Source of the DNA: Anadara kagoshimensis
Lineage: Eukaryota; Mollusca; Bivalvia; Arcoida; Arcidae
DNA length: 64,000 nucleotides
NCBI GenBank assembly: GCA_021292105.1
Contig: CM037864.1
Location: 41,530,514-41,594,513 of the forward strand
Direction: 5' to 3'
Position numbers and translations under genes: made by a program. Position 1 is the first letter of the stretch. Each line of letters starts with the position of its first letter. Under the pieces are notes generated by a model that did not search any database, was not told the DNA's origin, and saw only the letters and a list, made by a program, of their open reading frames with translations. Positions 2,217 through 61,745 of this stretch are shown one piece after another.

Positions 2217-5200
2217 GAACAAACAAGAGTTGAAGCTGCTAAAGCATCACTGAAGAGAGAAGTTGAAAAAGAAATAAGCTCACTACAGCAAAATCTTACC
2301 AGACTTCAACAAGTAAGTTTTCCTGTCTGTAGATAGATGACGCATTCAAACAACCAGCTACAACGTAAACGTTTTAATTTCTTTTCGGCTTAATGGTTAT
2401 TGAAATCAGTTATATTCAATTTTAATGATTAAAATATTTTCTTTTAGCTGAGTCTTAGTTAAGTTTTTGTAAAATGAAAAACAGACTTACCAATCTATGT
2501 CCAAATCACAATTCCAAAGCAAAGTAAAAACTTTGAAACTGGCAAACTATCAGTTTAAGTTCAATAGCGAGGCCAGGTGCTCTGGTGCTAAGTTTATTGG
2601 TATAAATGATACAAACACAAAAAGTAAATGTAGAGTTCTATCATATATAGATTAATGCTTTCTCCGTTTGTGTATTAGAACCCTTCATAAATGTGATTCT
2701 ATTTTACGATTTGCAACCAGTGAATCGAAGGGTCAATAAAACACGTTTGCAAAGCGTACAGCTAAAACACAATGTGAAAGGTGTCGCACCAAATAATCTG
2801 TGATATTAGCGAGTTAATCATACATATAACTATGAATTTTATTTTTTAACATTTTAGGAAGGTCTAGGATCGCAATCTGAAGAATTAGAACATCAATTAA
2901 TAGGTCTTAGAAATAAATTAGAAGAAATAAATGTTGAAAATAGACAATTAAAAAGTGAATTAACTGATGCAACAACAAACTTAGCTGTAGTTAAAAGTGA
3001 ACTAGTGACAGTAAAACAACAGTATGGCGACAAATGTAGAGAATTACACTCGTAAGTACTGCTTCTTACAAAGCGTTCATTTTGGTGGTGACCAATGGAG
3101 TTCGCCTGCGTAACATGTGATCCATACTAGTACCCCTTTATATTTTGAAAAAACGTTAACGTCGAAAGTTCCCGGAGTAAAGCCATTTTACGGGAAAACT
3201 GAATCAATTCTATCTCCATTGCAATGCTCCGCAGAAAACGGTAATCTGGTATCATGTGGTACACTGGCGAACCCAATTTTCGTTATTTAAAGAAAAAAAT
3301 ACCATTTCGTGAGACGATAATTTCGTGGTTAATAGTAACCGTTTAAGGAAGATTTTTCGCTAGCACTATTTTGTTACACGTTAATTCGTGAATAAGGATG
3401 TAAGCGAAAACAACGATAATTGAGACACCACTGAAATTAATGCTTTAACAATAAATACGTAATGCAATGAAATAGTGCTGTACAAATAAAACTGGTATAA
3501 TATGTAATTTAAACTCCTGAGCTAATATCTTTGCTGATGGCTAGTGCCCCGAGGATATCACAATCTCAGTTTGCAATAATTTTGTGTTATTGTTAGAAAT
3601 ATACTATTGTTTAAATTTGCTGCAAATTAAAATTTGAAATTCCTTAACAAAACTAGGGAATACTCCCTTATGCAAAGTATTTCCTTGGCTACATTTGGTA
3701 AAATTTATTTTGGACCTTAGGTTATCTTATCAACATCTTTGAAATGATATTGGTTTCATAATTTTGGTCCAAGCACTACTCATGAGGAATTGTATTCCGA
3801 AACGGCCGCTTAGTGCTGTAAAAATAACATTGCATAATATGAAATACAATGGAATATGTAATAGAAAATTGCAGCGATAAGCATGTGCTCAATAAAAGTA
3901 AGATAAACCGAAAGTACATTTACTACAACAAAATGTATGAATACAATAGGAAAACCATACAGAGAGCATGCACATATTGAAACAATCTTAAAATGGCGGT
4001 GAAAGACGGGAATGGATATAATGACAAAGAGTCATCCAGTGATATGGTTTCAAATACTTTTGTAGATCAATTACCATGTGTAATTATTTTACATTAGGTC
4101 CCCAAACAATAACGAAACAAAAAATAAAGCACTATTACTTTGGATCTAATTGATCATTATAACTGGTATCTATCCATCCAAAGTTGAAGTATTACAGTCA
4201 GTGGTATCATTATGTTTTATCTTGTGTCTTTCATTTTGGTTTTATCCAGCTTTCCTGCAACAACTTTTCATATTTTAGGAATTTTAAAATTTAAGAAGCG
4301 GATCATTTTAATTAAAAGTGTTTATCTGACAATATTCTGTAATTTGGCGTAAGAAAACAAATGCCACCGTCGATTACGTATGCCATTCGCGAATCACATA
4401 TTATACCGGTCTTAATTTCACAGCACTAGACGGCCGTTCCGGAATACAATTCCTCATCAGTAGTGCTTGGACCAAAACTATGAAACCAAAACTTTTTTCC
4501 AAAATGTTGAAAAGAAACCAAAAGGACAAAAATCAGCTAAAGAAATACTTTGCATGGGGAGTATACCTTAGATTTTGGGGAATATCAAATTTTAAAGCGT
4601 CATTTAATGCGGGGGCTAATATCATCGATTGTTTTTGTACCCGGAAATCGCTTAAACCCACACTGGACCCATGGGGAGACTTACACAGACCTTATTGATT
4701 ATATTTCGTGTCAAAAGTTTGAAAAATGTCAAAATACTATTGCGTATATGTTACATGCATTAAAAACAAGTAGTCATCAAAATCATTGATTAAATAGATT
4801 AAATGGAAAATTCCGTTTGTCAAAATTACATTATAGTTTAGATAAACGAGATGCACATGCCAACAATTTTAGTAAAAGATTCTCTTACATAACTTGTATC
4901 GATTTCATATATACATTCTAGTATAGAGCACAGACCTGTCAAAAAGTTTAACACTAAGATAACCAATAAATACTGCACTGGTAGCTAATTTTTATCCTTC
5001 GTTAGCTATATCTCGATAGCTTTTTCGGCAGCTACTACCAATATTTCGGCAGCTTTTTGGTTACCAACTTTTAATATCTCGACCAACACTGACCATCAAC
5101 TCCTTTTCCTTAGCTTCTGTTAACTTTTGACCGATTTGTACTGTATTTATATATAAATATATTTATAACATTTCAATTCTATTTTTTTTGTATCATTTAC

Positions 5201-8200
5201 GTTCAGCCGGTTTATTTTGAATCAATAGACATATTTTTTTTATTTCTTTAGGATTTACCCTCTAGCCTATTGTCTGTGTCAACACATATGTTGCTTTATG
5301 TATGACAAATTATCAAGTTATTTTGTTATTTCTTACATAAAGAAGATAATTTTCTATTCTCTGAAATGTCAGACAAATTACATATTATACCAGTTTTAAT
5401 TTTACAGTACTAGACGGCCGTTTCGGAATACAAAATATTATTTTATATCGCTGTTCCTTGATTCGAAAGTCCTTTTCTTTCAAATATTACAAAACTATTG
5501 CATTTGCGTGTAAATCATTAGAAAAAGATGCAGCTAAAAGGGTTTGATGCAATAGAAATATATCTAATAATTCAAACTTAATAGCTTATCATCTCTTGTT
5601 TGATCGGAGATGTTCATCTGGTTGTTCACCGTGAAATCTTAAAGGTAACATTAGTCGACTGTTTGGGATCTACCAACACCATTATAGCCAGATAGTTATA
5701 CATCATTTAATGGTTATATCCAGCGCCCTTCTTCAATCAAATGTTCCAATGTATATTTATTTTGAATTTTGTCGGTTCTTGTTCATGAATGCATTAGCTC
5801 TTGTCAAGCAGATATTTACTACAACTTTATTTCTTCGCTTTCGAAGAATACCATTCCCCACTTGAGATTTTACAATTATGATCATCTTTCCGTTATATTA
5901 TTTTTATCAATGTCTACAATTCCATAAAAACTAAAAGTTAAGCACTTGTCATATGGAATGTAAAGAAACACCTTACTGTAAAAGACAATCAAAAATATTA
6001 CACACCACACAAAAGGTTACGGTATACTCCCTTTTGCAAGTATTTCCTTACCTAAATTTGATTAAATATATTTTGAGCCTTTGGAAATTTTAACAACCCC
6101 TTGGAAAAAAATTGTTTTTACAAATTTGCTTCAAGCACTACTGATGAGGAATTGTATTTCGAAACAAAACGGCCGTCTTAGTGATGTCAAATAAAGACAA
6201 GTATATATGTTATTGCGACAATAACATTATAAATTATTTTCTTGTCATTTTTGGTAAATAAAAAGCTGTAAATATGCTTTCTTATTATCTTAAAGTTTTC
6301 GACCCTACTGGAATGAACAATTTATTAGTTATTTACAGTATAGGTGTTTTGCTGATCCTATTAATGAGATATTTTTGCTACTTTTGGTATTTTAAGGTAA
6401 AAACATTTCAATATGTAAATCAACCGCCCTTTTCTTCATATTTTGTGACAAACTTATTTCAATTTATAACAAGTCTTTTGTTTTATGTAAACCTTTTGTA
6501 TTCCTACATTGCAGACAAAAGACAACAGTTATGGATTGTATTAAAGAACAAGACAAACTTACAAGGCAGCTTCATTTATTACAGTAAGTGTCGCATTATG
6601 TATATTTTCTCCTCGTAAATATCTTATTCATAGAAACTTCAAATTTTCTAAACGTTCTCACAAATGCTGTGGAATTTTGATAAAATGGTATCTAAATGTA
6701 TTTTATTCAAAGTGAATTTTTGCGTCTGATGTTTGTACGTATATAAATATAACTAAAAACGTTTTACCAACAAAACAGCTAGTATGCGGGTATTTTGATT
6801 TTCCTTCCTTTTATTTCAGTAATGCCAATAGGCAGTTACATGATACCAATGATGATCTCCGAGAGGTTATTGAAAAACAATCACCAAATTCAACACCAGC
6901 ACCCGTAAGTATAACATAAAGACAATAACACTTAAGTTTGCTCCCATAAAACATTTAACAAGCTCTATCATAGCGTATTAATTGTGAATTAAGTATATCA
7001 TAAGCAGGAAAAGCAGGTATATTGTTGTATAGAAAAGAATAGATGTCAATAGAAAAAATGAAATCATCACTTTTGTCATACAGTTTCAAATGTAGCATTT
7101 CGTGTGCGTTGTGATTCAGGTATAAGTTTCAATATGAAGAACAAGTTATTTTATTTTAAACCTTTGAAGTTTGTGAATTTTATACTTTTTTGCATAGTGT
7201 TTTTTTGTTTGATCATTAACTAGTATTATTTTCTGTCCGTTGTTACCAAAAACCAAATACCTTCTTTTTATTTTGAATTTGTTTTATGATATTTGGTCAG
7301 GTATATATTATTCAACAAAATTTTTTAAAACACGCCCATGAACTATTGATTTTCAACTATATCTCTCATCTCTGCTATTAATCAGCATAAACTGTTATTT
7401 CACAATAAAAAGTGTAATTATTGACTTTATAATTTCAGTCCATAGTGGGTACTGTACTGGATGACATTTATAGAGAACGACGAGGATCTATTATGAGTGA
7501 TTATGTTCACAGTGGTCCAGCATCGTAAGTATTCCATAAGACTAACCTATGAACCCTTCGATAAAGTTATACACAGTGGTCCAGCATCGTAAGTATTCTA
7601 TAAGACTAACCTGTGAACCCTTCGATAGAGTTATACACAGTGGTCCAGCATCGTAAGTATTCTATAAGACTAACCTGTGAACCCTTCGATAAAGTTATAC
7701 ACAGTGGTCCAGCATCGTAAGTATTCTATAAGACTAACCTGTGAACCCTTCGATAAAGTTATACACAGTGGTCCAGCATCGTAAGTATTCCATAAGACTA
7801 ACCTATGAACCCTTCGATAAAGTTATACACAGTGGTCCAGCATCGTCAGTATTCCATAAGACTAACCTGTGAACCCTTCGATAAAGTTATACACAGTGGT
7901 CCAGCATCGTAAGTATTCTATAAGACTAACCTGTGAACCCTTTCATAAAGTTATACACATTGGTCCAGCATCGTAAGTATTCTGTAAGACTAACCTGTGA
8001 ACCCTTAGATAAAGTTATACACAGTGGTCCAGCATCGTAAGTATTCCATAAGACTAACCTGTGAACCCTTCGATAAAGTTATACACAGTGGTCCAGCATC
8101 GTAAGTATTCCATAAGACTAACCTATGAACCCTTCGATAAAGTTATACACAGTGGTCCAGCATCGTAAGTATTCCATAAGACTAACCTGTGAACCCTTCG

Positions 8201-11200
8201 ATAAAGTTATACACAGTGGTCCAGCATCGTAAGTATTCCATAAGACTAACCTGCGGGTCCTTCGATAAAGTTATACACAGTGGTCCAGCATCGTAAGTAT
8301 TCCATACGACTAACCTGTCAACCCTTCGATAAAGTTATACACAGTGGTCCAGCATCGTAAGTATTCCATAAGACTAACCTGTGAACCCTTCGATAAAGTT
8401 ATACACAGTGGTCCAGCATCGTAAGTATTCCATAAGACTAACCTGCGGGTCCTTCGATAAAGTTATACACAGTGGTCCAGCATCGTAAGTATTCCATAAG
8501 ACTAACCTGTGAACCCTTTCATAAAGTTATACACATTGGTCCAGCATCGTAAGTATTCCATAAGACTAACCTGTGAACCCTTCGATAAAGTTATACCCAG
8601 TGGTCCAGCATCGTAAGTATTCCATAAGACTAACCTGTGAACCCTTTCATAAAGTTATACACAGTGGTCCAGCATCGTAAGTATTCCATGAGACTAACCT
8701 GTGAACCCTTTCATAAAGTTATACACAGTGGTCCAGCATCGTAAGTATTCCATAAGACTAACCTGTGAACCCTTCGATAAAGTTATACACATTGGTCCAG
8801 CATCGTAAGTATTCCATAAGACTAACCTGTGAACCATTCAGATTGATAGTTAGTTTTGGGTTTGTTCAACAAATATGTAAAAATGGTAACCGTGGTATAT
8901 AAGTGGAGAAAAATATAAATGCAAGGGAAATGTGTTACATAACAACTCGGTGCCTAGAAAAAGAAAGCTGAATACAAATATCAGGTGGTCAAGAAAAGTA
9001 GCAAAATATGTATGCAAGAGAAATGTTGTAAAGTTAAAACTTTGACGAAATGTGTTACATAAAAACTCAATGTCTCGATAAAAGACGACTGGATAAAAAT
9101 ACCAGGTGTTCAAAATAGGTAGCAAGTGCTTAAATTGTTGGTAACATTGTTATTGCCAACACATATATCGACTGCAACGCCAACTGCTACTGCATCTTTA
9201 AAAAGATGACTGCACATTAAAGCATTGAAAAATTAGAAAAAAACAAACGCATGTAAGCTCCATAACAAGACATCAGTTTTAAAACAAAGGGTGCATTTTT
9301 GCAACCCAGCATAAAGTGAAAGTCCTTATGTTCAATTTGTACCAATTTGACCTTTAGAATTAAAGTTTATAAAGTCGACCATCAGACTATAGCTCCTTTC
9401 TTCATTATTTTATATACAGAGTTCGTTCCCTAAACTTTGGACCATCATTATCATTAGTGGAAGATTTGGACACCGCATTGTGTACCACAACTCCATCACC
9501 ACGTATGTTAACTGCTAAACTCCCTGTTGATGAGACTTGTGAGGAGGATAATTATGATATAGGTTTGTATATATTTCATAATTCATTCATGTTTATGTAA
9601 ATTGTAAGACAATATAATTTGACAGTTAAATAAAAGGTAGTTGGTTTTGTTATAGTTTATCTGTAGTTCTGGTGCATCAAACATCAATTTTTACAAACTA
9701 TTTTATTCTTAATGATTGACTATTAAGTTGTGTTACTTTTTATTATATTTTTACAAAAGAAATATATACAGAGTTTTTGTTCACATTCTACAACGTCGTG
9801 CAATTAAAACTAGTACCCATTAAAGGAATATATATACGATATCTTGCCTCCTATATTGGTAATAAATTTGTAATATTTCCCGCTTTTTGTGAGTAACGAA
9901 TTAAATATTGTTTATAAGTAAGGAAAGTATGATGTTAATTTTTAAATCAAAATCTTTAAACCAAATATTGAAAATTATCAAATTTATCGATTCTGACAAT
10001 CTGTTCTCTATTTTCCCAAATTAGCAGACAGTGGACATTCCACTTTGAGAGATCAGAATGATATAGATACAGAAAATGAAATACCAGTATTTGATTTGGA
10101 TAATGGAAGAGGCAGTGGTCGACGGCGGAGGAGGTACAAAGGCAATTATATACCAGAAACGGATGTAAGTACAGTAATTGTTATAGATATATTCTTAAGA
10201 TAATGGGGAAAGTCTATTATGAAACACAAAATACAACAACACTTAGAGTTAGTTCACTCTAAAATATATCTGCTATGAGATTAAACGATCTGAGAAAAGT
10301 AATGCGATGTAACAGTATAGGCAAACAATTTTGACCTGTCCGCTGTGGAAGAGTGCATTTGTGTTTAAGAATCACATGGGTTTATTTTGTCTACATAATG
10401 CGAGCACTAATTATTATTAGTGAATTCTGCTCTCCGGAGCACCCGGCCTCACTTCCCTGGTTGAAGTTAACGTGTCTAACCTAACTTGTCAGTTCCAAAG
10501 TTTTTACTTTGCTTCTGGATTGTGATTCGGAAATGGATTAGTATGTTTGTTTTTGATAAGCTATTAATAGGGCGGGTCCTTCTATTAGCTATTAATAGGG
10601 CGGATCCTTCTATATGGATATTCCTAATAAAAGGTCGAGCGGACAGGTCAATGTTGTTTTCCCATAACTATAATATTGAAATAATGAATATCAAACACAA
10701 AATCCAAATATTGATCACTCATTGTTTGATACAAAATATAGTTTTACATCAGATGGTGATCATGTTCCGAAATTTCTTTGACAAAACCTGTATGTAATGT
10801 TTCTTTTCTGGCCATTGGTGTACTATAATGTACTGCGATGTTTTGTTTTTTTTGCAATTTGTTTCACGACACTATTTATTTATTGATCTACAGAAACAAA
10901 ATTATCTTGCACGATAATCACATTTTAGTTATATAGTCCGTCAGTGATATAGTGGCAGAGTGTTTATAAACACAGGCGAGTTTATTATACACAAAAGGTA
11001 TTAATACCGTGTTATCATATACAGTCAAACCTGTCTATAAAGGCCACCCAAGGGAACCAGTAAAAGTGGCCTTTATGAGCAGGTGGCCTTTATATACAGG
11101 TTCAAATAATAAAAATAAAGAACAGTTGGGATACAATTAAACTGGCCTTTATAAGCAGGTGGCCCTTATATAGAGGTGGCCTTTAAGGCAGGTTGGACTG

Positions 11201-14200
11201 TACGTATATTCACGCCTTTATGCGTTTATTTGTCAACTCCACTTTTATAAATCACTATCTTAGGTACATTATATGCACTCTTCCATGTTTATAAACACTC
11301 TGCCACAATATCGCTGACGGACTATAGCTTTCTATGTTTATAATGTCTTGTCGTCTTTGCTTTCTTTATCAGACTCTTTTCAAAAGTATTGCAACTGTCT
11401 GTTTTTTTCTTTTTATAAGTAAACCTATCAACTTTAGCTTTATTCCTCTACGTAGAATACCTACATAGAAACTAGCTATTTACAAATACGTTTTGACACT
11501 AGACCACTGCAAGCAAAAGCTTATCAATGTCCTAAAAAACTCCACACAATATTGGTGATTAATATGATGTGTATATATCCAAAATTATCTTAGATTTATT
11601 TGACGTCGCATTGTTCCATGTTCCTTTCATTCTCAATTGCTATTATTACACGAGTAGCTGTAGTAAACTAAACAGGGGAAAATTACACACTGCCTTACTT
11701 TCCTAGTGGAAGTTCGTGTGTTTGACTAAATAAGCCATCTTTCAAAGTTTTTGGGGATGCGGATGGGTTGTGATATTAACATGAGGGAAATATTACCAAA
11801 ATATGAAATGCGCATCTTAAATCTTTATTAGTTGCAATACTTTTGAAAAAAATGTGACTTTGGGTGTAATTGATTTCTGACCGGTTTGAACTTGTACATT
11901 AGGATCCAGAATCTCATGATGAAATGGAGACAGAAACAGAAACAAATATGGATCCAAAAGATGCTAAAATGTACAAAATGATTGAACATAATAGATTTGG
12001 TTCTGCTGTAACCAGACGGTCAGGGTCAAGGTCACGCACGAGGGACGGGAAAGACTCACCAACGCACAAATCATCCAAACGATCATCTAAAAGAGAAGTA
12101 AGTCATGCAACGAAGTCATTAATTTGACCACTCTATTTAGAAATTTTATTCACAGTTTTAGAATATTCGCGTTAATATTTATGGTTGCATGGGTGGAAAT
12201 TTTTTTCCGTCACCTAACTTATACTTTTTATTTACAACATTTTCTTGACAACCAACTTATAACATTTTCTTCAACATTGCTTTGCTATGATATATTGTAA
12301 ATAATGCATTTATGTTCCTTTCAATAACTCCAGCATGAGTAATTTGATTTAAGATATTTCTACACTTTTGAGGGTTCTGGATATTGCCTAATATACAATA
12401 TTGATTTGCAACTTTCTATTATTCTTACTTATACACTTGCCAAAAAATACCTGTGCTTTCTCTAAGAGAAATGCATTGAACTTTTTTTCAATATCTACAT
12501 TGTATATTTCTTATGTGTCTCCATTTATTTCCAGTCTCCAACTGTTATTACTAAAGCTCCAGAACGTATATATAAAGTTGTGTTAGCTGGGGATGCTGCA
12601 GTTGGAAAGTCCAGTTTTATAATGAGGCTATGTAAAGGGAAATTCGTCAGCAATCTCAGTTCTACATTAGGTAAATAATTTAATTTGATCTAAAAAGTCG
12701 TTCAGCATTGATGCTTCCATACCTATGAAAGTATGCCACGATTTTAATTAATGGTTTTAGGCTTGATTTTCATGTTATGGCTATATACAGATGCACTTTA
12801 CGTTACTAAATTTGCTGCTAGTTAAAATTTGAAATGGTATACTCCCTCATGCAAAGTATTTCCTTAGCTAAATTGGGTAAAATAGATTTTGGTCCTTTGA
12901 AAAAAAAATTGGTTCAAGCACTACTGATGAGTTATTGTATTTCAAAACGGCTGTCTAGTGCTGTAAAATTAAAACCGATATAATATGTACCTACACGTAC
13001 AGAGCATTTTATTCCATTGCATTTATCTATTGAGATATTTAGCCGCATGTATTTCTTAATTATTTACAAGTACAGCAAATCTGCACATATAACTCGTGGA
13101 CATAAGAAGAACAGACTTTATAGATAGGTGACCTTCATATGTAGATTAATTTTGTTTAAATATGAAGCAAAATGGACCTTTAAAACTGACCATAGTGGAC
13201 AGATCAACTTTATCAGAGGTGGTTTTACTGTATATGAATCAATTAACACTGATCATAAGAGACACCTGTATATCGTTATACGCAAAAATAAGTATATTAT
13301 GTATCATTCTTAAACGACTCTCCTTTTTAATGTTATAGGTGTTGATTTCCAGACCAAATTATTAGAAGTAGATAATAAAACAATAGCTTTACAGTTGTGG
13401 GATACCGCAGGCCAGGAAAGGTATGTGTTACACTTGTACCTCTTTTTAAAGAGACCGTTTTAATCTTTTAAAGTATATTTCCATGTAAGACAACATGCAT
13501 GATAATAATTACAGCTTAAAACTTGTTTTTGTGATGTTAACTGCGTTGTGCTTTTATTTGCTCTGTCTATGCTGTTGACAAAAAATATTATTCAGCATTT
13601 CAACTTTTTCTTCAGTAATACTAACACGATTTATACTATACTATTAATAATTTAAAAAAAATAAGGACCAGTGTACCTTTAAGAACATTTGTGAAAATAC
13701 TATTTCACTGTAAAATAGATGAAACATCATGTTAATTCATTTTATGCTGGCTCTAAATACTATTTACAGTCCATCTTGCCTTAAAGGCCACCTCTATATA
13801 AGGGCCACCTGCTTATAAAGGCCAGAAGAATTCTATTCCAATTGTTCTTTATTCATATTAATTGTACCTGTATATAAAGGCCACCTGCCCATAAAGACTA
13901 CTGTTACTGGTTCCATTGATTGGTCTTTATAGACAGGTTTGACTGTATTCTTATGTTTAACGACATGAATTCTTTTTTTCCTAAAAGGTTTAGAAGCATC
14001 GCCAAATCCTACTTCAGACGAGCAGATGGTGTGTTTCTGTTGTATGATTGTACATATGAGAGATCATTCTTAAACATTAGAGAATGGGTGGAGTCTATTG
14101 AGGTAATTTACGTCAGTTGTAACAGCATGTGCTAAAGGAAATGAATGATTTATCATAGAAGAGTCAATACTTTTCTATTCTTATACGCAGTATAATTGTA

Positions 14201-16153
14201 TTAGAAACGTCTACGTAAGACAATAATTTCGGCAACTTTTGACAACGAAGCAGACTGCTTGCAAATAAATTGTTGACCCAGCGATATTGCAAGCCTAGGG
14301 TTATCAAGGCCCTCAAAAAATGTATAGCCGTCATCACAGTATTGTTGATAAGTTTGATGTCTCTGCGCCCAGGATTGCCCTTGATATATTTGGCGTCCCA
14401 TAGTCTGATGTTCCATTCACACAATTTTGATTACACGTGTAGTGGGTATAGCTATCTTGACAGGAGGTGCTTACCCTTCTGGAGAATCCAGTCTCGCTTC
14501 TCTGGTGGATGTTCGCGTGTCTAACCAAACTTGTCAGTTCCGAAGTTTTTACTTTGCTTCTGCATTGTGATTCGTACATGGATTAGTATGTTTATATTTT
14601 TCATTTGATGACATACTGTACACATGTCAATGTTTCAATTTTGTTTTTATTACATGTGCAAACATGCTACAAAAATAAAATGACGTTTTTTTCTGTTGAT
14701 CATTCAACGAATCATTCAACGAATCATTCAACACAGGTACAACTATTCCTTGAAAATTTGCATGTAATCACAGGGGCGCGAGAGTAAGCACATCCTGTTT
14801 AACTAGCTATACCCTCCACGAGTAAAATCAAATTTGAGAATTGAAGAAATGAACATGAAACGATGAGATGATAAATATTTCCAGGATAATTTTATACAGA
14901 TATTATTACGAGCAGCAAACCTTTTTGTATCATACAGTTATGTATTCATTAAGTATTCCAAAAGTCTATGCATGTTTTAATGCTTATTTGTAGGAAAGTT
15001 CACATAAAAGGATACCAATCATGTTTGTTGGCAATAAAACAGATTTAAGAGAAGAATCTCAGAAGCAAGGTCGTAGAATAGTCAAATATGAAGACGGACA
15101 AAGACTAGCAAGAGTATGTTGGGTTTTTGTTTTGTTTAATTCCATTATATATTTTTATAGGTCCATGTTAAAGAGACACACCATGTTTATGTACAGCAAA
15201 CATTAAGAATATAATCCTATTACATCATTGCCTATTTATCAACTCAAAAAATAGCAGTAAATTTAAACTTGAATCCGTAGTCAAAGTTTTTGCACACCAC
15301 TGGTCATTTACTCAAGTGCCTTTCCAAAGTCGAGCGTTTTATAGCCAGTGGACCCACTCTGTCTATTTCTTTTTTAATTGTTTCATTCTTCGGTAAACTT
15401 GTATTGTGTAATGCGTCGACTGTGGTTATCAGTTACAAATGTTATCTCTTTTATTGTAAACACATTGGTATTGTCTTCATTAATGTTATATTATGTTGTT
15501 ATAAGGTAATTTTAGTTCAAATAATTGTTTTGCGTTATATGAGTAGAAGGTTTTACTGTTAATATTTTATTTTAGGAATATGCAGGTCTTTTCATAGAAA
15601 CAAGTGCTAAAGATGGATCCAACATTACAGAGGCTGTGACAGAATTATCCAGGTAAATTGAAATTGTTTTTTAAAATAAACATGTTTTTAGTAGATTTTG
15701 GATAATTCTACCAAAATATTTACATTGCGAAGCATATATTTCTTGGAAAAACATGTTCAAATTCCTGGTGGCATTTTACGTGTTTAATGTATTTGCCAGT
15801 TTCAAAGTTTTAACGTTGCTTATAGGATTATGATTTAGACATGGGCCGGTATGTTTGTTTATGATGTAAAATTAAGTCAGAAGGTTCTTAAAATGTTGCA
15901 CAAGAACCAATATAAAATGTAAAACATCTTCAGTTTGGTTGATGTTGAGTTGGTATCTATGAAGTCTTCAATTACACCTCAGTGCATTCCATAACAAGTT
16001 AATCAAGGTCATTAACCATTAAAATTATTTGTTGTATTCTTTTTGTTATATAGATTGTTGAGTGCTAATGAGGACCTTGAAGTAAAGACTGTAGGATTAC
16101 AACTACATGACGGTTCCGGCAGCGAAAAGAAATCTGGATGTTGTGGAAAGTAA
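2217..16153 (+). CDS. RASEF: RASEF (Rab45-like) Ras and EF-hand domain protein, 3' 14 coding exons
   Basis: Fourteen exons join in one frame with canonical GT/AG junctions: 2217-2312, 2858-3051, 6515-6583, 6820-6904, 7439-7524, 9420-9562, 10025-10164, 11903-12097, 12535-12670, 13339-13420, 13988-14102, 14994-15113, 15576-15652 and 16054-16153. They total 1,638 nt, or 545 residues plus TAA. Residues 1-150 are a charged heptad-like coiled coil, and 150-345 a Ser/Arg-rich linker. A Rab-type GTPase follows: P-loop GDAAVGKSS (355-363), TLGVDF switch I, WDTAGQE (402-408), NKTDL (461-465) and ETSAK (495-499). The C-terminus is CCGK, a CCXX geranylgeranylation signal implying membrane attachment. Known RASEF proteins place EF-hands before the coiled coil; those must lie upstream of base 1, so this is the 3' part of the gene. 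Family members are large Rab GTPases on perinuclear and vesicle membranes. The sister family CRACR2A shares this architecture, but the GTPase core ([27 protein letters not shown]) fits RASEF better. Confidence 0.95.
2470..2580 (-). repeat. Retroelement tail repeat (reverse copy)
   Basis: Reverse copy of the ~100 bp tail sequence (AGTAAAAACTTTGAAACTGG core) that also occurs near 10450, 14510, 15790, 20020, 20985, 22020, 22790 and 24480. It sits just 3' of RASEF exon 2217-2312. Confidence 0.65.
3772..3818 (+). ncRNA. Hammerhead-ribozyme-like motif, core mutated
   Basis: Stem I AGCACTA pairs with TAGTGCT. Between them are CTCATGA (consensus CTGATGA, so one core base is changed), stem II GGAAT-TGT-ATTCC, GAAA, and a tiny stem III made from CGGCCG. 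The cleavage-site TC is scrambled to CT. A decayed, probably inactive type I hammerhead with minimal stem III. Confidence 0.7.
4422..4467 (-). ncRNA. Hammerhead-ribozyme-like motif, GAAA changed to GGAA
   Basis: On the minus strand: AGCACTA, intact CTGATGA, stem II GGAAT-TGT-ATTCC, then GGAA in place of GAAA, CGGCCG, GTC cleavage triplet and TAGTGCT closing a perfect 7-bp stem I. One essential core base is altered, so it is probably inactive. Confidence 0.75.
4930..5138. mobile_element. TIR element, ACAGACCTGTCAAAA family (decayed copy)
   Basis: Begins CAGACCTGTCAAAAAG-TTTAACAC and ends with the degraded inverse TTAACTTTTGACCGATTTGT. Similar length, termini and interior (repeated GCAGCT/TAGCT words) to the better copy at 56300-56498. 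Non-coding MITE-like element in a RASEF intron. Confidence 0.7.
5405..5432 (-). ncRNA. Hammerhead 3' half fragment
   Basis: Minus strand reads GTATTCCGAAACGGCCGTC then TAGTACTG. This is the 3' half of the same ribozyme motif (half of stem II, GAAA, stem III, GTC); the 5' half with CTGATGA is missing. Confidence 0.65.
6134..6185 (+). ncRNA. Hammerhead-ribozyme-like motif with intact core and enlarged stem III loop
   Basis: AGCACTA, intact CTGATGA, stem II GGAAT-TGT-ATTTC (one wobble), intact GAAA, then ACAAAACGGCC and a GTC cleavage triplet followed by TTAGTGAT. Both catalytic boxes are consensus. A 4-5 nt insertion enlarges stem/loop III and stem I carries a mismatch. Of the five, this copy has the least core damage. 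Confidence 0.75.
6985..7145 (-). mobile_element. Decayed reverse-transcriptase fragment
   Basis: Minus strand resembles the segment YDKRDD.IFSIV..FLC.NIPA that is better preserved at 23159-23494. Heavily mutated, without an open frame. It lies in the RASEF intron between exons 6820-6904 and 7439-7524. Confidence 0.5.
7511..8836 (+). repeat. 64-bp tandem array (~20.7 copies) carrying an exon end and its 5' splice site
   Basis: The array starts in RASEF exon 7439-7524 and runs 1.3 kb into the next intron. The string CATCGT recurs at 7521, 7585, 7649 and every 64 bases on to 8801, giving 21 occurrences with no register slip. Each unit contains CAGTGGTCCAGCATC|GTAAGTATT (exon end plus donor), ACTAAC, and ATACACAG. 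One copy (7841) has GTCAGT in place of GTAAGT. Variant units recur at multi-unit spacing; for example CTGCGGGTCC occurs at 8251 and 8443, three units apart. Units are nearly identical, so the expansion is recent or homogenised. Confidence 0.97.
8837..9419 (+). other. Remainder of RASEF intron, nothing recognised
   Basis: AT-rich intron sequence between the 64-bp array and the exon at 9420. A weak internal repetition occurs (AAATGTGTTACATAA..AACTC near 8930 and 9050). No coding signal was found. Confidence 0.4.
10025..10027 (+). promoter_or_regulatory. RASEF: NAGNAG tandem 3' splice acceptor
   Basis: The intron ends TTAGCAG, so splicing after the first AG (exon from 10025) or the second (exon from 10028) are both possible. 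Either choice keeps frame; the difference is one alanine codon at the junction. Confidence 0.6.
10315..10666. mobile_element. TIR element, GCAAACAACATTGACCTGTCC-type family, interrupted by retroelement tail
   Basis: Left end TATAGGCAAACAATTTTGAC and right end GTCAATGTTGTTTTCCCATA are inverted repeats. The interior (about 10405-10600) is occupied by the retroelement tail repeat, so this copy appears to have been invaded. The same TIR family occurs at 42047-42272 and 59239-59478. Confidence 0.65.
10932..11326. mobile_element. ~395 bp TIR element with ~40 bp arms, hosting a nested MITE
   Basis: The left arm TATAGTCCGTCAGTGATATA, followed by GTGGCAGAGTGTTTATAAAC, is matched by its reverse complement ending at 11326. 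The interior carries a complete 179-bp MITE (11022-11200). Only one copy is recognised in the window. Confidence 0.85.
11022..11200 (+). mobile_element. 179-bp TA-flanked MITE, copy 1
   Basis: Starts CAGTCAAACCTGTCTATAAA and ends AGGCAGGTTGGACTG, flanked by TA on both sides, as expected for Tc1/mariner-type integration. The sub-terminal GGCCACC/GGTGGCC words are also inverted. No coding capacity. Confidence 0.9.
12917..12962 (+). ncRNA. Hammerhead-ribozyme-like motif, GAAA changed to AAAA
   Basis: AGCACTA, intact CTGATGA, a weakened stem II, AAAA in place of GAAA, CGGCTGTC, and TAGTGCT closing a perfect 7-bp stem I. It lies in the RASEF intron after exon 12535-12670, with the same flanks as the copies at 3.8-6.2 kb. 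Probably inactive. Confidence 0.7.
13767..13945 (-). mobile_element. 179-bp TA-flanked MITE, copy 2
   Basis: Same family as 11022-11200 in the opposite orientation. It is again exactly 179 bp between TA dinucleotides, and lies in the RASEF intron just before the exon at 13988. Confidence 0.9.
14225..14610 (+). mobile_element. Decayed RT C-terminal fragment plus element tail
   Basis: A plus-strand frame reads [16 protein letters not shown], matching the RT C-terminal stretch seen better at 22907-23089 (minus). The recurring tail with GTTTTTACTTTGCTTCTG follows. Several out-of-phase short ORFs overlap it; none is a gene. Inside a RASEF intron. Confidence 0.65.
15780..15880 (+). repeat. Retroelement tail repeat, diverged copy
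   Basis: Matches the tail sequence (GCCAGTTTCAAAGTTTTAAC, then a diverged GGATTATGATTT and GTATGTTTGTTT). It lies in the last RASEF intron. Confidence 0.55.
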
Positions 16154-23140: not shown

Positions 23141-23500
23141 AGCTCTACCACAGCGTATTTATTTGGAAACAAATACACAATAAGCAGAAGAAGCAGATAT
23201 ATTGCTGCATAGAAAAGTGAAATTGACAATAGAAAAAATTAAGTCATCACGTTTGTCATAAAGATTGAAATGTAGACTTTCGTGGGCTAAGGGATTTTTG
23301 TAGGTATAAGTCCAAATATGAACATAACTTAAGAGAGAAGTCGTATCATTTATTTTAAGCTCACTAGAATAGATCACATTTACATAGTCCCCAAATTTAG
23401 GATTGTCAAGAGACAGAACGTCATCTATATATCTGTATGTGGAGTTCAATGAGTTGGCGACAGTCTTCTCTCCAGATTTAACAAGGTTCTGCATAAATTC
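22907..23500 (-). pseudogene. Reverse-transcriptase fragment (YIDD box) of an undetermined retroelement
   Basis: Minus strand 23494-23159 reads STYRYIDDVLSLDNPKFGDY, then SELKINDTTS, LYDKRDD, SIVNFTFLCSNI. After a broken stretch, 23089-22907 continues QGYCRLRFIKALKRFYGRHH. YIDD is the catalytic RT box. The order YIDD - LYDKRDD - SNI - FYGRHH matches a repeat-encoded RT common in invertebrate genomes. I cannot say from the fragment whether it is Penelope-like or another class. Truncated at both ends and frame-broken. Confidence 0.75.
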
Positions 23501-23663
23501 TGTTTCATAACATTAAAGAAAGAATTCAGCAATCAATGGCACATAGTGTGTATTAATTAAGAAGCAAATACACCATAAGCAGGAGAAGCAGTATCAATTT
23601 ACGTCTTTTGGTTAAATGTTTCCGTTTTCAAAGTTTTAACTGTGATTTAAACATGGACCAGTT

Positions 23664-26389: not shown

Positions 26390-29300
26390 TTATTTATTCT
26401 CCTCTAATGTTCCTCTCGCAAGGTCTGTCATCTTTGGATATTTAACTTTTTTCTTATCGAGTTCTTCTTGAGACCATAGTAAATGTCTTAATAAATTAGC
26501 TAACTTTGGGTTTGCATCAACTTCTAAAATTGCTGCATTTAATTCACTAGCCACCTGAAATATAAAAGAAAACATTTTACTTTCAAATAAAACATTAAGT
26601 TTCATAACTTCACGCTAATCCAACTATCAGTATATTTAAGAAATAATCAACATTTACCTGTGGTACATCGTTGATTAATACATGGGCAGAGTTCACATGC
26701 ATGTTAACAACATAAGATAAGCAAGGGAGTACATCATTAAAATGGAACAGCGAAGGGTATATCATTTGTTATAACACTGCTGGATCTCTTCACATTTCAT
26801 ATGAAGGAAAACGCAGGTCATATTAGAATATACCCTTTTATTTAGGTTTTACAGTGCTTCTTGTCACCTAGGTTCAAATCACACTCTGACAGGCCCTAGT
26901 GTGAGAAAGTTTGTCAGTTCCCTTGTCAAAGGTTGGTTTTTTTTTTGGACATCTTGGTTTTCTTCACTATCCAAGAACTGACTGTCCAAAAAACTGTGAA
27001 ATACTTTTGACTGGTGTATAAAACATCATAACTCTGCCTTTCATTAAGTTGAGGGTTCTCAAAGGAAAACAATTGAAAAGTATAACAGTTACCTCCCCTT
27101 CAACCAGAGTAAGGCATATGCCAAAAACCCCCATATACTAGTATAACATAAAATAGACGTTTCGCCGACCACGCCCACAATGTTCCGACACTGGCCGCCA
27201 TCACGGAACCAAAGCAGCAAAGTCATGGCAACTAATGACGTACTAGTGTCAGTGACATCATTAAATGGCGCTATTCAGGCCGAGTTTTCATTCTTTTTGT
27301 GTGTAAATCAAGCATCCGGCCATTTTGACGGAACATTGTGGTCGTAGCCGGCAATACGTCAATTGTGTACATTAAATTTGTTAACAATGACCTTGTTGTT
27401 TGATTTATTAACTCTTAACATAAACAGGGATCTTCTTTTCAAGAATATAGATCATCTGTAGTCAAGTAGACTAAAGAGTGGACTTATTGAGGACAACATC
27501 TATAAATGCCTGTGGTAAATCCTAGTGCAAAAAAGTTGTTAGTTCTCAGACTACTTAAACTCCTCCACCATTCGAAAACTTACACCTTCATATATTTACA
27601 GTCACAGAAAGTGACCTTGACCTTCTTACTCTGAAAGTAGTTATGAATTAATTGTGTCTGCATGATTTACACTATATTTCTTTTGAAACAAATTTACTCA
27701 CATGTATCTCAATCAACTATTTCACATATACTGATTTTGAAAATTTATTTTGTAACACACAAACACTACATGTATATCACATTTAATTACCGTTATTCCA
27801 CAAATACTATCTCAATAAACTAAATGAAATTATAGAAAACAAAGAAAATTGGAATTTGGTATTTTAAAACATGTCAAGATAAAATATCCTTGTGGCATTA
27901 TAAAGATATCTTTATTCATGTTACCTTTTGTCTTTGAGATGGATGTAAAAGTTCTCCAAATGGAGATTGCTCTGGATTGTCAAAAGCTAATAAAGCCAGT
28001 GTACGTTCCAGTTCTGACAATATTTCGGATTTTCCTCTCCTCTCTCGGCTAGGTGTGTTGTGCATACTCTAAAGCTTCTTCAACATTCTTTTCTCTGATT
28101 ATCAATCAACTGTTGTTGCTGAAATGTAATTAGATTTTAAATGAATAATAATAACAGTAACAAATCTATTAATTGCCAGCATTTGTTCATTTAGATGTTG
28201 GTATCAATTAAGGTAAAGCAATTAACAGAGAAAGGCTGATATATAAAATAACACTTATATACCTTAAACCAAACAAATTTAATTTGGACATTAAACACTA
28301 TTATGCCACTTCACTTTTATGATGTCATAAGATTGTAACTGTGTAACTACTCATTATGTCTTACCAAGAAATAATAACCAAAGATAAAGATTGGAATAAT
28401 CTATCAACAAATTTCATAAAACCCTCAGCACAGTGGCATTGAAAACATACAGTGCAATAAGTCCATTTTTAAATATCTGATTTTATAAAATTTGGCACAT
28501 CAGGATTTTATTTTTACTACTTCTTCAAGTGTTTCTGTCTTGTCAGTTATTAAGTAAAAACTAAAGGATGTGCTCAAGAAAAATTTAACTACTTTCATTT
28601 TCATTACTAATCTTTACAATTCTGTTTATCTTTCAAGATTATGTGGAATTTTAGTGACTTACAATAAAAAGCACTTTTTCAATGTAACAGACTAGATAAA
28701 CATCTCCAATAAAGCTGTAGGTGATAAGCTTTTTGGAAAAAATACAGGAATTCAAAATATAGGCTATTCCAGCACCCCAAGACATGTTACTTTTCAGTCA
28801 CATCTGTAATACTGGTATGTGTATATTTGTATTGCCACTGTGGTAGCTCAGTTGCAAGAGTTCTCACTCTGTTAGTGGAAGGTTGTGGGTTCAATCCCCA
28901 GCTAGGTCTGATCAAAGACTTGAAAGTGGGTATTACAGTTCTTTTCCCAAGCACTCTGCATTACGAAATTATTCTTTTAGATGGGAACTTTAAATAAACA
29001 AGGTCCCCTGTCAGACATTTATAAATTTAAGGTATCATTTTGAAGATAACTTAAGCTTATTATACCTCTATTCTAATTTTCACAAAAATTTTTGATTTGT
29101 AATATAAAATATGGCCAAAAAATGCCAGATTTATGTCCAGGGAAATCTTAGTTAAAGAATGATTGTGAAACTGGAGACAGGTTGATCACAACTTTTCCAA
29201 AGATTTACTTGTTTTGAATACCAGTACTGGCATTTAATAATAAACATAAAATTTTATTTTATTTTAAAACTCATCCCTCATACCTGTAGATGGAAATATA

Positions 29301-30431
29301 AGTATCTGTCATTATCCAAAAGTTCTGGATGTAAATTATTGACTAGTGATATTGCTTCTTGTATTCTACCATTCTGAATTGCATCCCGTATTTTGATGCG
29401 TTCATCCAATTCATCTAAATCAATAGATGGGTGTATTCCTGACTCAACTCTAAACTTCTCAGCAGCCTCCTTGAAACCCTCTGAAAATACAACACAGTAT
29501 TTAATTTAATGGATTTGTTGATGTGCATCATGAACTTTCCTGCTGGTCAAGATAAAAATGCTAGGAAAAAACACCACAAAAACAAAAACAAACCATGAAA
29601 TAATAATTGGGTTCCACCGTTAATACAGAAAGGCTTTTTATTGAATTCTGAGGTATTGTATGCTTTGAATTCATATTCATTTCTAACACAGCTAAATATT
29701 AATAGTACATATACTTTATGACGATTTTTATCTTTTCTTGGGAGCATTCTTGTTCATCTAGCACAATTCTATTTGAGTTCTTAATTTAAAATTTATTTTT
29801 CAAAACCATAAAACACTGAATTTTTATAAACTTTCTTAAAAATCTTTTAAAACTTGCTATTTGACTTGTATGTTTATTTGTATAAAAAAAATATAGAATT
29901 ACGGTTTTTGAATTATGTCATGAAATATGTATATTATTTAATCCCTGTTTATTTTTCTATTCTCTTAGTTTGCTAGACAAAACTATGACAAGTATGAAAG
30001 ATGAAATGAAAAGTATCTAGAAATACTTAGGCCAAAAAAGGAAACATATGTTTCCACAAGTGTTCTTAGGAAAATTAGAGTTGGTAGGTGGGCCATTTTC
30101 AATTCTTTTTTTACATAAAACTTAATTACTTATGTGGCAAAGGTGCCAACTTTAACAGTGATGGTCCAAATATTGTCAAAAAAACTTTAGAGTACTCAGT
30201 AGGCATGAAAATTTTGGGTTGGTCGGGTTAGCAGAAACATGCTTATTTTAAGGCCTCAGGAGATGATAAAGGATAAAGACAGTACCTGTTACAAGATAAT
30301 TCATGACCAGTTGGTTCATATCTGCTCTCCGTACATGAATGCCGTGCAACCTATCCATCCATTCTTCCTGAGATATCTCCTCTGGTTTTTCTACATTTCC
30401 TGAACCGAAGTTCATCTTAAATGACATAAGA
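26390..30431 (-). CDS. GID8: GID8/TWA1, CTLH (GID) E3 ligase subunit, one exon frame-broken
   Basis: Four coding exons on the minus strand: 30286-30431 (ATG at 30427-30425), 29284-29480, 27925-28118 and 26390-26554 (TAA at 26392-26390). The protein opens [20 protein letters not shown] LisH motif follows (about residues 30-62, [17 protein letters not shown]), then CTLH (about 68-125) and a C-terminal CRA region ending [21 protein letters not shown] without its last residue shown here to vary in GID8 proteins. Expected length is about 233 residues, against 228 in human. GID8 is a scaffold subunit of the CTLH/GID ubiquitin ligase in nucleus and cytoplasm. All splice junctions are canonical. The third coding exon is 194 nt where homology predicts 198 and needs three frame changes, so the window as given does not encode an intact protein. 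It is head to head with ARHGAP39 and convergent with RASEF. Confidence 0.93.
26860..27010 (+). mobile_element. SINE body fragment
   Basis: Contains the B-box-like AGGTTCAAATC and the family words CCTAGTGTGAG, AAGTTTGTCAGT and CAAGAACTGAC. The A-box end is missing. Located in a GID8 intron. Confidence 0.6.
27925..28118 (-). other. GID8: GID8 third coding exon with three frameshifting gaps
   Basis: Reading on the minus strand, the exon opens as QQQLI, moves to a second frame for [12 protein letters not shown], then to a third for LAERGEE, and to a fourth segment for [16 protein letters not shown] through QRQK. Homology to GID8 places a 2-nt loss near 28103, a 1-nt loss near 28052-28057 and a 1-nt loss near 28027, a net loss of 4 nt from the expected 66 codons. 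Frame 1 meets TGA after 12 codons. Both splice sites are canonical, and every matched residue outside the gaps is conserved. That pattern fits local consensus errors or very recent damage better than an old pseudogene. Confidence 0.85.
28845..29010 (+). mobile_element. tRNA-derived SINE, 5' half
   Basis: A box TGGTAGCTCAGTTGCAAGAG, B box GTGGGTTCAATCC, then the family body GTCTGATCAAAGACTTGAAA. Inserted in the GID8 intron between coding exons 2 and 3. Not a tRNA gene: there is no closing acceptor stem. Confidence 0.8.
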
Positions 30432-30979
30432 CTACAACAAAAAATATTTATAAATTAATTTGACAACAAATAATTTTATGAACATTTTGAATTCTTTTAA
30501 GGATTTTGCTTTAGAAAAAGGTGTTAACACTTTGGTTATACATGTACCAGAGTCTTTGAAATAACAAAATTGGAAAATAGCCTATCAAAAATCTGGTAAC
30601 ATTGTTTGGGAATTGAATCAAATGGTAGGAAGCACACATCACCATAATTGAGATTAATCATTTCTCTGCTATAAACAAAACATAGATTCTTATGACAGAA
30701 ATACACATTCATAAATGTGGTTATGAACTATTTTTAACAAAAAAAAACATGAAGCAGCCAAACCATGACTCAAATCCTGGACCGTCTCAATACTTGCAGG
30801 ATGCTCTTCTAAATGGGCTACCGGACCACCTTATGAGCATCATTCCTCCTGTCTTTCTTTTCAATTAGACTACCTTCAATCAAGACCATTAGGTTCCATT
30901 CTGGTACCAACCTACTGGTCCACCAATTCCCAGGGTTGAACAAACCACCAAAAGTAACAGAAAATGGAAAAATGCAACA

Positions 30980-32409: not shown

Positions 32410-49121
<16,712 letters not shown>

Positions 49122-59950: not shown

Positions 59951-61396
59951 CTTTTAGATTGGAACACTGATGTGACTAGATTTTTGAGGTTACGGCTTAT
60001 ATATGCATATATTTCTTTAAAATAGCAGATTTATTTGAATTGGACCATAAGAATATTGAATCATGAGGTAGACCATTTGAATGAACTCATGGATTGTAAT
60101 TGATTGAACTAGATCTATTAGAATGCCATTTCGATATGCATATATTTTCCAGACTTAACAGTTCTATCATATTGTTGCAAATTTGTAAACTGCAGAAGTT
60201 TAATCTTGAAGTCGATTCAAATCCCAAAATTCAGTTTGAGTCCAATTAGGTCCATATTTTACACAGTGCCGTTCAAAAGGTTTATAAAAAGCGGATTGAA
60301 AATACAATATATCAGGATTTTATAGACAGACATATCAGGGTTATCCATTTGTTTTATTTCAATTTTAACACATATTGCATGTATTCTTTAAATCAATATT
60401 CACCTTATTAGACTTTAATGAGAAGGAATGAAATGTACAGGAAAATATTGATCCAGTTAGAAAACAGAATGACATTTTTCAACCCTTCATTTGAGCAAAA
60501 CACACCCAAACATTAAACATTAAGCAAAAAACCCACCTAGTCATTATTATGTCATTGTTTTAGGAGACATGGTATTGGTTTGTAGGGAATCTGACATTGC
60601 ACAATTTTATATCCGCTACAAACGTCCATTTATCATCATTAAAATGATATAAGCACTATGTACCAGCAGGGTTGTTGATGTATTCCTTGCCGCCACTTGG
60701 GATACCTTGTATATTGTCCCGAAAAATGTAAGGCTCTCGTACATGGACCTTATTTTTAAACTTTTTCTTGCCAGCCCTAGCTTACCCTGCTCCATGGTAA
60801 TTGCAGGTGTGCACAACTACTTTGGTTATGGCTATGCTATGGTAAAGTAAAACATAACAAAATTGAAGTTTGAAAATTATGCAGCAAACACAGTGACTAT
60901 CAAAAGTAGACATGTTAGTTTGTAATAAACATTAAGATAATAAGTGATAGATTATCCTTTTAATCCTTTCAAAGCTTTGACCGACACATTTTATGTTTTA
61001 CTAATTAATGATATATTTATACAAGTTCATTACTCATCATAGTTAGAGGTGAAGCGATTAAGTCTTTTAAACTTTATATATACATGTACTTGTATAAAGA
61101 TGTTAAGCAAATGATACACTTGTCTCTACCTGCCAGATGACTGGTCATCCTCTTTCATGCTTCTGAAATAATGCCATCAACTCATTACTCAACCAGTAGG
61201 ATTAAGCCGTAATTAAGGCTTTTAAAACTTAATAATTATTAGTATAAAGAGCGATACAGATAAATGTTAGATGTTGAAGATGGTGTGTATAAACAAATAT
61301 AAAGATGTTGTTAAGAGATGTTATGTTTTGCCTCCCCCTCCCCCAGATGTTATGATGATAACCTGTTTACCTACAGGCCTATCACCTTTCTTCAAA

Positions 61397-61745
61397 CAGA
61401 CTACACTGGTAAAGTGGAAAATCTTGACTAGACTCTGACTCCTTATGAAGAAGATCGGGGTTGAACAACAGACTACACTGGTAAAGTGGAAAATCTTGAC
61501 TAGACTCTGACTCTGTATTAGACTAGAACCCTTGTTAGAGTGTTCACTCCTTATGAAGAAGGTCGGGGTTGAACAACAGACTACACTGGTAAAGTGGAAA
61601 ATTTGGACTAGACTCTGACTCCTTATATAGAAGATCGGGGTTGAACAACAGACTACACTGGTAAAGTGGAAAATCTTGACTAGACTCTGACTCTGTATTA
61701 GACTAGAACCCTTGTTAGAGTGTTCACTCCTTATGAAGGTCGGAG
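61397..61745 (+). repeat. Higher-order tandem repeat of 72- and 108-bp units inside a SINE head
   Basis: CAGACTACACTGGTAAAGTG starts units at 61397, 61469, 61577 and 61649 (spacings 72, 108, 72). The longer units carry an extra TCTGTATTAGACTAGAACCC stretch. The last long unit runs into an ordinary SINE B box (GGAGTTGAACCCC) and body (61740-61890). Confidence 0.9.

Follow-up and report, generated by a model that had tools for sequence, protein, structure and literature searches.

In the bivalve Anadara kagoshimensis, the end of one exon of the gene RASEF has been amplified, together with its 5′ splice site (donor), into a tandem array of 21 in-register copies with a period of 64 bp. The array lies in a window of 64,000 nucleotides (NCBI GenBank assembly GCA_021292105.1, contig CM037864.1, forward-strand positions 41,530,514 to 41,594,513), to which all positions below refer unless a contig or locus is named. 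On its sequence features, the array belongs with the amphioxus minisatellites known as mirages, and arrays of the same anatomy are present in other genes of the same genome. With good but not full confidence, it is best explained as an exon-junction minisatellite in which the first donor would be used nearly always and transcripts made from later donors would be destroyed.

Tandem Repeats Finder (TRF), applied to the window, reported the array with a period of 64, 20.8 copies, 95% matches, 0% indels and a score of 2412 (limits in Table 1). Aligned unit by unit, it resolves into 20 full copies and a partial 21st copy, which keeps to the unit until about column 48 and then gives way to unique intron. 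In each unit, the final 17 nt of exon 7439-7524 (CACAGTGGTCCAGCATC) are followed by 47 nt of intron starting GTAAGTATTC; with its onset 17 nt inside the exon, the array holds the true donor in copy 1. Both TRF and the unit alignment thus bear out the proposal of the initial annotation that a 64-bp array carries the exon end and donor in register; its period and its count of 21 copies also stand, while its onset at 7511 is moved to 7508 by TRF. By eye, the intron into which copy 21 runs retains a likeness to the unit end, as it should if exon end and ancestral intron together made up the unit. Within the 64-kb window, the + strand holds 21 instances of the donor word GTAAGTAT, of which 20 belong to the array and one is the preceding RASEF donor (6905); the - strand holds 0. 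A chance origin of the array is out of the question.

When the 1.115-Gb assembly was searched, the array sequence was found at one locus only, with at least 21 matches (match counts in the genome searches are lower bounds), and neither a second locus nor a second haplotype was found in this one assembly. The array therefore does not look like a mobile satellite, and a dispersed satellite family that landed here by chance was rejected on the same single-locus result. The exact unit pattern gave 0 matches in genome_contigs and 0 in viral_contigs. A structured RNA was also rejected, as the window holds no Rfam match at gathering score and 7439-7716 folds no better than shuffled sequences do (z +1.29, with 177 of 200 shuffles folding at least as well).

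The host gene was reconstructed from 13 exons; joined at AG/GT borders, they form a single reading frame, whose 523 codons include one stop, at the very end. Its Rab domain matches PDB entry 2p5s (RASEF) best, with 233 bits and E 4.9e-68, against 140 bits for the next sequence (Rab26), which upholds the earlier naming of the gene; the Pfam Ras match of the product has an E of 9.1e-51. The C-terminal GCCGK looks like a prenylation signal. The 5′ part of the gene probably lies outside the window, within which neither the start codon nor an EF-hand exon was placed. The array falls in the linker region, between the coiled coil and the Rab domain. The initial annotation gave the acceptor as 9419; this is corrected to an AG at 9418-9419, with the next exon starting at 9420.

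Twenty of the 21 donors in the array read GTAAGTAT, and that of copy 6 (from 7845) reads GTCAGTAT (GTCAGT). The computed duplex with the U1 5′ end amounts to -7.6 kcal/mol for the 20 intact donors, the true one included, and to -3.5 for copy 6, compared with a range of -4.6 to -8.7 kcal/mol across the 12 inferred RASEF donors. The donor is thus copied in register as first described, although the 20 decoys counted then become 19 intact ones, since copy 6 is weak. Translation of the joined exons with donor 2, 3, 7 or 21 ended in ...HSGPAS* every time, and an immediate stop is expected for any later donor because the same bases follow the exon end at 7524 in each case. The earlier claim that later donors add an immediate stop accordingly holds by translation, but not always: where 52 nt per copy would also be removed, as discussed below, the frame is kept.

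In amphioxus, the term mirage is used for minisatellite-like tandem duplications across an exon-intron boundary that copy splice signals, at 5′ and 3′ boundaries alike. Unit lengths are 10-72 bp for Adh3 and 150-160 bp for the globins BflGb6 and BflGb9, copy number differs between haplotypes and, in Adh3, even in somatic cells, and reverse transcription PCR suggests that regular splicing continues despite the arrays (PMC3087553). Mirages in troponin C (TnC) and PGBD5 are added in another report, where those in Adh and TnC are described as occurring without aberrant mRNAs (PMC3902484). The RASEF array is likewise tandem, has a unit of minisatellite size, spans a real exon-intron boundary and carries splice signals in its copies. 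It differs from the amphioxus arrays in that 20 of its 21 donors are intact and a branch-point match also lies within the unit, and it has 21 copies, whereas the two haplotypes of BflGb6 have 6 and 3. Its host, with a genome of 1.1 Gb and a G+C content of about one third in the window, is also unlike amphioxus. Among the matches listed in the literature searches, which included the amphioxus mirages and IFI6, there was no title on boundary-spanning arrays in molluscs.

A second known system is the human gene IFI6 (6-16, G1P3), in which Turri et al. reportedly found in 1995 that a minisatellite yields multiple splice donors. In that gene, two downstream repeat units serve as donors and three mRNA species result (PMC4526556). 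As in IFI6, a tandem repeat at the RASEF exon end offers several donors. The two differ in that the IFI6 unit is 12 bp long, so that later donors add 4 residues in frame, whereas the 64-bp unit of RASEF adds an immediate stop, as translated for donors 2, 3, 7 and 21. Intron gain by tandem duplication offers a third comparison, for which the Rogers model, vertebrate ATP2A1, 24-bp AGGT repeats in fission yeast and potato RdRp are cited, with few recent gains of this type proven (PMC4974935). In RASEF, too, a tandem duplication at a splice site makes new splice signals, and several copies are also reported in the fission yeast case (PMC4974935). Unlike these cases, the RASEF duplication enlarges an old intron; if its units were read as mini-introns, it would be a gain caught part-way.

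The assembly was also searched for three copies of a donor word at a repeat spacing of about 40-70 bases. Triples of GTAAGTAT gave 1500 + 1948 matches versus 355 + 416 for the reversed word, those of CAGGTAAGT 469 + 488 versus 85 + 106, and those of AAGGTAAGT 143 + 655 versus 202 + 55, while a control word with the same letters as GTAAGTAT, GTATAAGT, gave 553 + 816 and its reverse 289 + 236; these figures are dominated by a few long arrays and are not counts of arrays. Among the matches listed, 10 donor-word arrays (5 of GTAAGTAT and 5 of CAGGTAAGT) and 11 control arrays were taken, all on contigs C1 and C2, and exon contact was judged from translations at the array edges and then from homology. 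Five of these 10 other donor-word arrays start inside an exon and copy its donor. Homology reaches the donor in three of them: an internal exon of DCLRE1A (69 bp x 9; PDB 5nzw, E 3.9e-6, residues 1-39 of 40), an exon of NOA1 (44-bp unit; PDB 8csp, E 5.8e-15, residues 1-44 of 44) and an exon of SCG5/7B2 (60-bp unit; Pfam PF05281, E 1e-11, residues 1-34 of 35, with no useful match in PDB). The fourth (67 bp x 14) is assigned to AUP1 with a weaker identity, as its CUE, G2BR and acyltransferase matches are all below curated cut-offs and PDB gave no useful match. The fifth exon, which we take to be ARMH3-like, was confirmed by no database, Pfam returning only an actin match (E 0.14) and PDB no useful match. 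In RASEF, DCLRE1A, NOA1, SCG5 and AUP1 alike, the array begins inside the exon and copy 1 carries the true donor.

A sixth donor-word array begins in the last DCLRE1A exon and has its donor word past the stop, and the remaining four (L039, L040/L041, L065, L066) showed no exon by eye, nor, for two of them, in Pfam with one open reading frame (ORF) each. Of the 11 control arrays, one adjoins a UBR-like exon, whose PRT6_C match in Pfam (PF18995, E 7.7e-5) falls short of the curated cut-off. No credible Pfam match was obtained for the remaining ten, one repetitive ORF having a phage match below cut-off (E 0.0039). Pfam covered 20 of the 22 control edge ORFs, one of them shortened from 90 to 74 residues, and part of the donor-array edge ORFs, with L039, L040 and L041 outside it, and PDB was applied to donor-array exons only. 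By Pfam alone, exon contact was found in 3 of the 10 donor arrays (NOA1, SCG5 and the last exon of DCLRE1A) versus 1 of 11 controls, numbers too small to distinguish the two sets, and each mirage call rests on its own homology and not on this comparison. Splicing from the next donor would bring an immediate stop in DCLRE1A, as in RASEF. In SCG5, AUP1 and the ARMH3-like exon, the stop would fall within the unit that is added, and for NOA1 the extra 44 nt would contain no stop but would shift the frame. As judged from these translations and homologies, donor-copying arrays recur in unrelated genes of the Anadara kagoshimensis genome, and this recurrence is the new part of the finding. The initial annotation had presented the RASEF array as an exceptional and possibly regulatory device, a view not supported in light of the published amphioxus mirages, human IFI6 and the further arrays in the same genome. 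A crude extrapolation from the GTAAGTAT search, with two such arrays within the first 16.7 Mb, and the CAGGTAAGT search, with three within the first 70.8 Mb, two of the five lacking firm identity, would mean donor-copying arrays on the order of a hundred or more genome-wide.

Several of the arrays encountered in these searches have features of their own. The two arrays of DCLRE1A stand 20 kb apart on contig C1, at about 10.650 and 10.670 Mb (L016:1446-2064; L021:1445 onward), and that of the last exon begins before the stop and has >26 copies of 64 bp. The NOA1 array (contig C1, 15781236-15784203) contains at least about 60 overlapping CAGGTAAGT triples, a far longer donor run than in RASEF. 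On contig C2, a AAGGTAAGT array with a spacing of about 65 bp extends over >8 kb (17005838-17013958), and the control array at the UBR/PRT6_C-like exon (L047:344-1798; 40 bp x 33) begins at intron position +2, so that the donor is spared by one base. At least 4 AAGGTAAGT arrays and at least 16 reversed-word arrays were present among the matches listed.

The preferred account of the RASEF array would begin with a tandem duplication of 17 nt of exon and the next 47 nt of intron, including the 5′ splice site, followed by rightward growth into the intron to 21 copies and partial homogenisation by unequal exchange or conversion. Growth into the intron would leave copy 1 joined to the exon, so that it remains the authentic donor, and the later copies, 19 of 20 of them with the same donor word, would be mostly neutral decoys. 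Donor 1 would be used nearly always because it yields the shortest exon (86 nt versus 150 or more, counted from the same acceptor) and is the first to be transcribed; the few transcripts from later donors would carry the immediate stop and then be destroyed. Since normal splicing is reportedly undisturbed by mirages, donor 1 may be expected to dominate in RASEF. The initial annotation argued that the transcript must be guarded by position-dependent donor choice or by quality control, and this is supported as a prediction from the sequence.

Some observations nevertheless count against this account. In IFI6, two downstream repeat donors are used, and exclusive use of donor 1 is therefore not assured (PMC4526556). 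Variation among the RASEF units is also unevenly spread, with 1 of 27 columns variable in the exon tail, donor and branch point versus 15 of 37 elsewhere (hypergeometric P 0.0005, for regions picked post hoc), and such low variation is not predicted by neutrality. When the four arrays with usable units were pooled, NOA1 and the ARMH3-like exon being outside, exon and donor columns were less variable than intron columns (Fisher P 0.0001), a result driven by RASEF; with RASEF removed, the donor versus intron comparison gave P 1.0 with few variable columns. These pooled figures are rough, as the AUP1 intron count is negative and the DCLRE1A donor was placed one base off. A general rule of selection acting on donor copies was rejected, the uniform donor columns being a feature of RASEF alone and noticed post hoc.

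The same uniformity of donor, exon-tail and branch-point columns, observed post hoc, would suit a regulatory rheostat, in which 20 competing identical donors divert a fixed share of transcripts to decayed forms that contain the stop, and copy number tunes RASEF output. The immediate stop after any later donor and the equal computed U1 pairing of the intact donors point the same way, but the literature on mirages describes them as harmless (PMC3087553, PMC3902484), and arrays in several unrelated genes of the same genome fit recurrent mutation better than special control, so that this possibility is judged unlikely. An artefact of assembly, or a strongly wrong copy number, appears very unlikely. 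Tandem arrays are often misassembled, and one amphioxus mirage was apparently aberrantly assembled in the draft genome (PMC3087553); against this, the 20 full RASEF units comprise 13 distinct sequences (unit 1 being identical to the 5th and 10th) with scattered private variants and no indels, a diversity that argues against simple assembly stutter, and the assembly consists of 36 contigs, some above 50 Mb. The exact copy number is that of the assembly. U1 is generally known to protect transcripts against premature cleavage and polyadenylation, and with 20 sites that match the U1 complement at +1 to +8 in 1.3 kb, the array might collect U1 small nuclear ribonucleoprotein on nascent RNA and shield the intron in this manner; this idea is given a slimmer chance still.

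The least probable of the alternatives draws on a feature that the initial annotation missed, namely a branch-point match and mostly acceptor-like sequence in each unit. ACTAAC is present in all 21 copies, and these account for 21 of its 28 occurrences on the + strand of the window; in most copies ...TATACACAG and then 12 nt precede the next donor. From donor to CAG there are 52 nt, and from CAG to the next donor 12 nt (TGGTCCAGCATC), identical in all 21 copies; CAG itself is found in 17 of 20 among copies 2-21, and CAT in copies 8, 17 and 21. Each unit could then be a 52-nt intron plus a 12-nt exon (52 + 12 = 64), with donor, ACTAAC and CAG in intron order, and splicing would add variable numbers of Ser-Gly-Pro-Ala blocks to the RASEF linker, as removal of 52 nt per copy adds these residues in frame and 1, 2, 3 or 20 blocks keep the whole frame. 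However, the 11 RASEF introns measured are all at least 437 nt long and the twelfth (15653-16053 by inferred exon ends) is 401 nt, compared with 52 nt here; the putative acceptor has few pyrimidines, with 8 of 17 for the three copies scored versus 9-16 in the 12 inferred RASEF acceptors, and an earlier AG (ATAAAG) lies between the branch-point match and CAG. Exons of 12 nt require help for recognition. In addition, the units of SCG5, AUP1 and DCLRE1A, by their length, hold at most 23 nt of intron, too little for such a layout. If it were true, an intronic DNA repeat would be expressed as variable protein blocks, and up to twenty nascent introns would lie side by side, with intron birth seen mid-process.

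Table 1. Positions of the RASEF gene, the 64-bp array and its parts in the window.
Feature	Position	Strand	Basis or remark
RASEF (Rab45-like) gene, 13 exons placed: coiled coil, linker, Rab domain, C-terminal GCCGK, stop	2217..16153	+	AG/GT exon joins, PDB, Pfam
Exon whose final 17 nt are copied; ends ...HSGPA-S, phase 2	7439..7524	+	
64-bp minisatellite, 20.8 copies, across exon end and intron start	7508..8839	+	TRF, unit alignment
Authentic 5′ splice site GTAAGTAT, copy 1	7525..7532	+	frame joins to 9420
Hypothetical 52-nt mini-intron, donor 1 to CAG of copy 2	7525..7576	+	weak acceptor
ACTAAC branch-point match, copy 1	7541..7546	+	
Hypothetical 12-nt in-frame exon TGGTCCAGCATC, copy 2	7577..7588	+	
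Copy 6 donor, broken (GTCAGTAT)	7845..7852	+	
Final donor copy (copy 21)	8805..8812	+	
Following RASEF exon, acceptor AG at 9418-9419	9420..9562	+	

Elsewhere in the window, a separate tandem array with periods of 169 and 181 bp (87-92% matches) lies at 46950-47921, and a nested one with periods of 72 and 180 bp (93-97% matches) at 61395-61738. A CTLH match (Pfam E 1e-9) at 29281-29505 on the - strand belongs, together with the minus-strand ORFs 26393-26614 and 30251-30454, to what we take to be a GID8-like gene; the ORF at 26393-26614 had no Pfam match. A WW-domain-like exon occupies 48921-49121 (Pfam E 0.005, below the curated cut-off), and 23162-23512 on the - strand is presumably a reverse-transcriptase-like fragment of a mobile element.

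With a bivalve as host, mirages exist well outside lancelets. In such arrays, donors of the same near context that differ mainly in position compete for one acceptor, and RASEF and the other arrays may therefore serve as natural assays of the effects of position and exon length on 5′ splice-site choice, which are usually studied with minigenes. They are also a hazard for annotation, as a naive predictor could pick any copied donor. If the frequency indicated by this small sample holds, Anadara kagoshimensis would be an animal suited to watching intron gain by tandem duplication.

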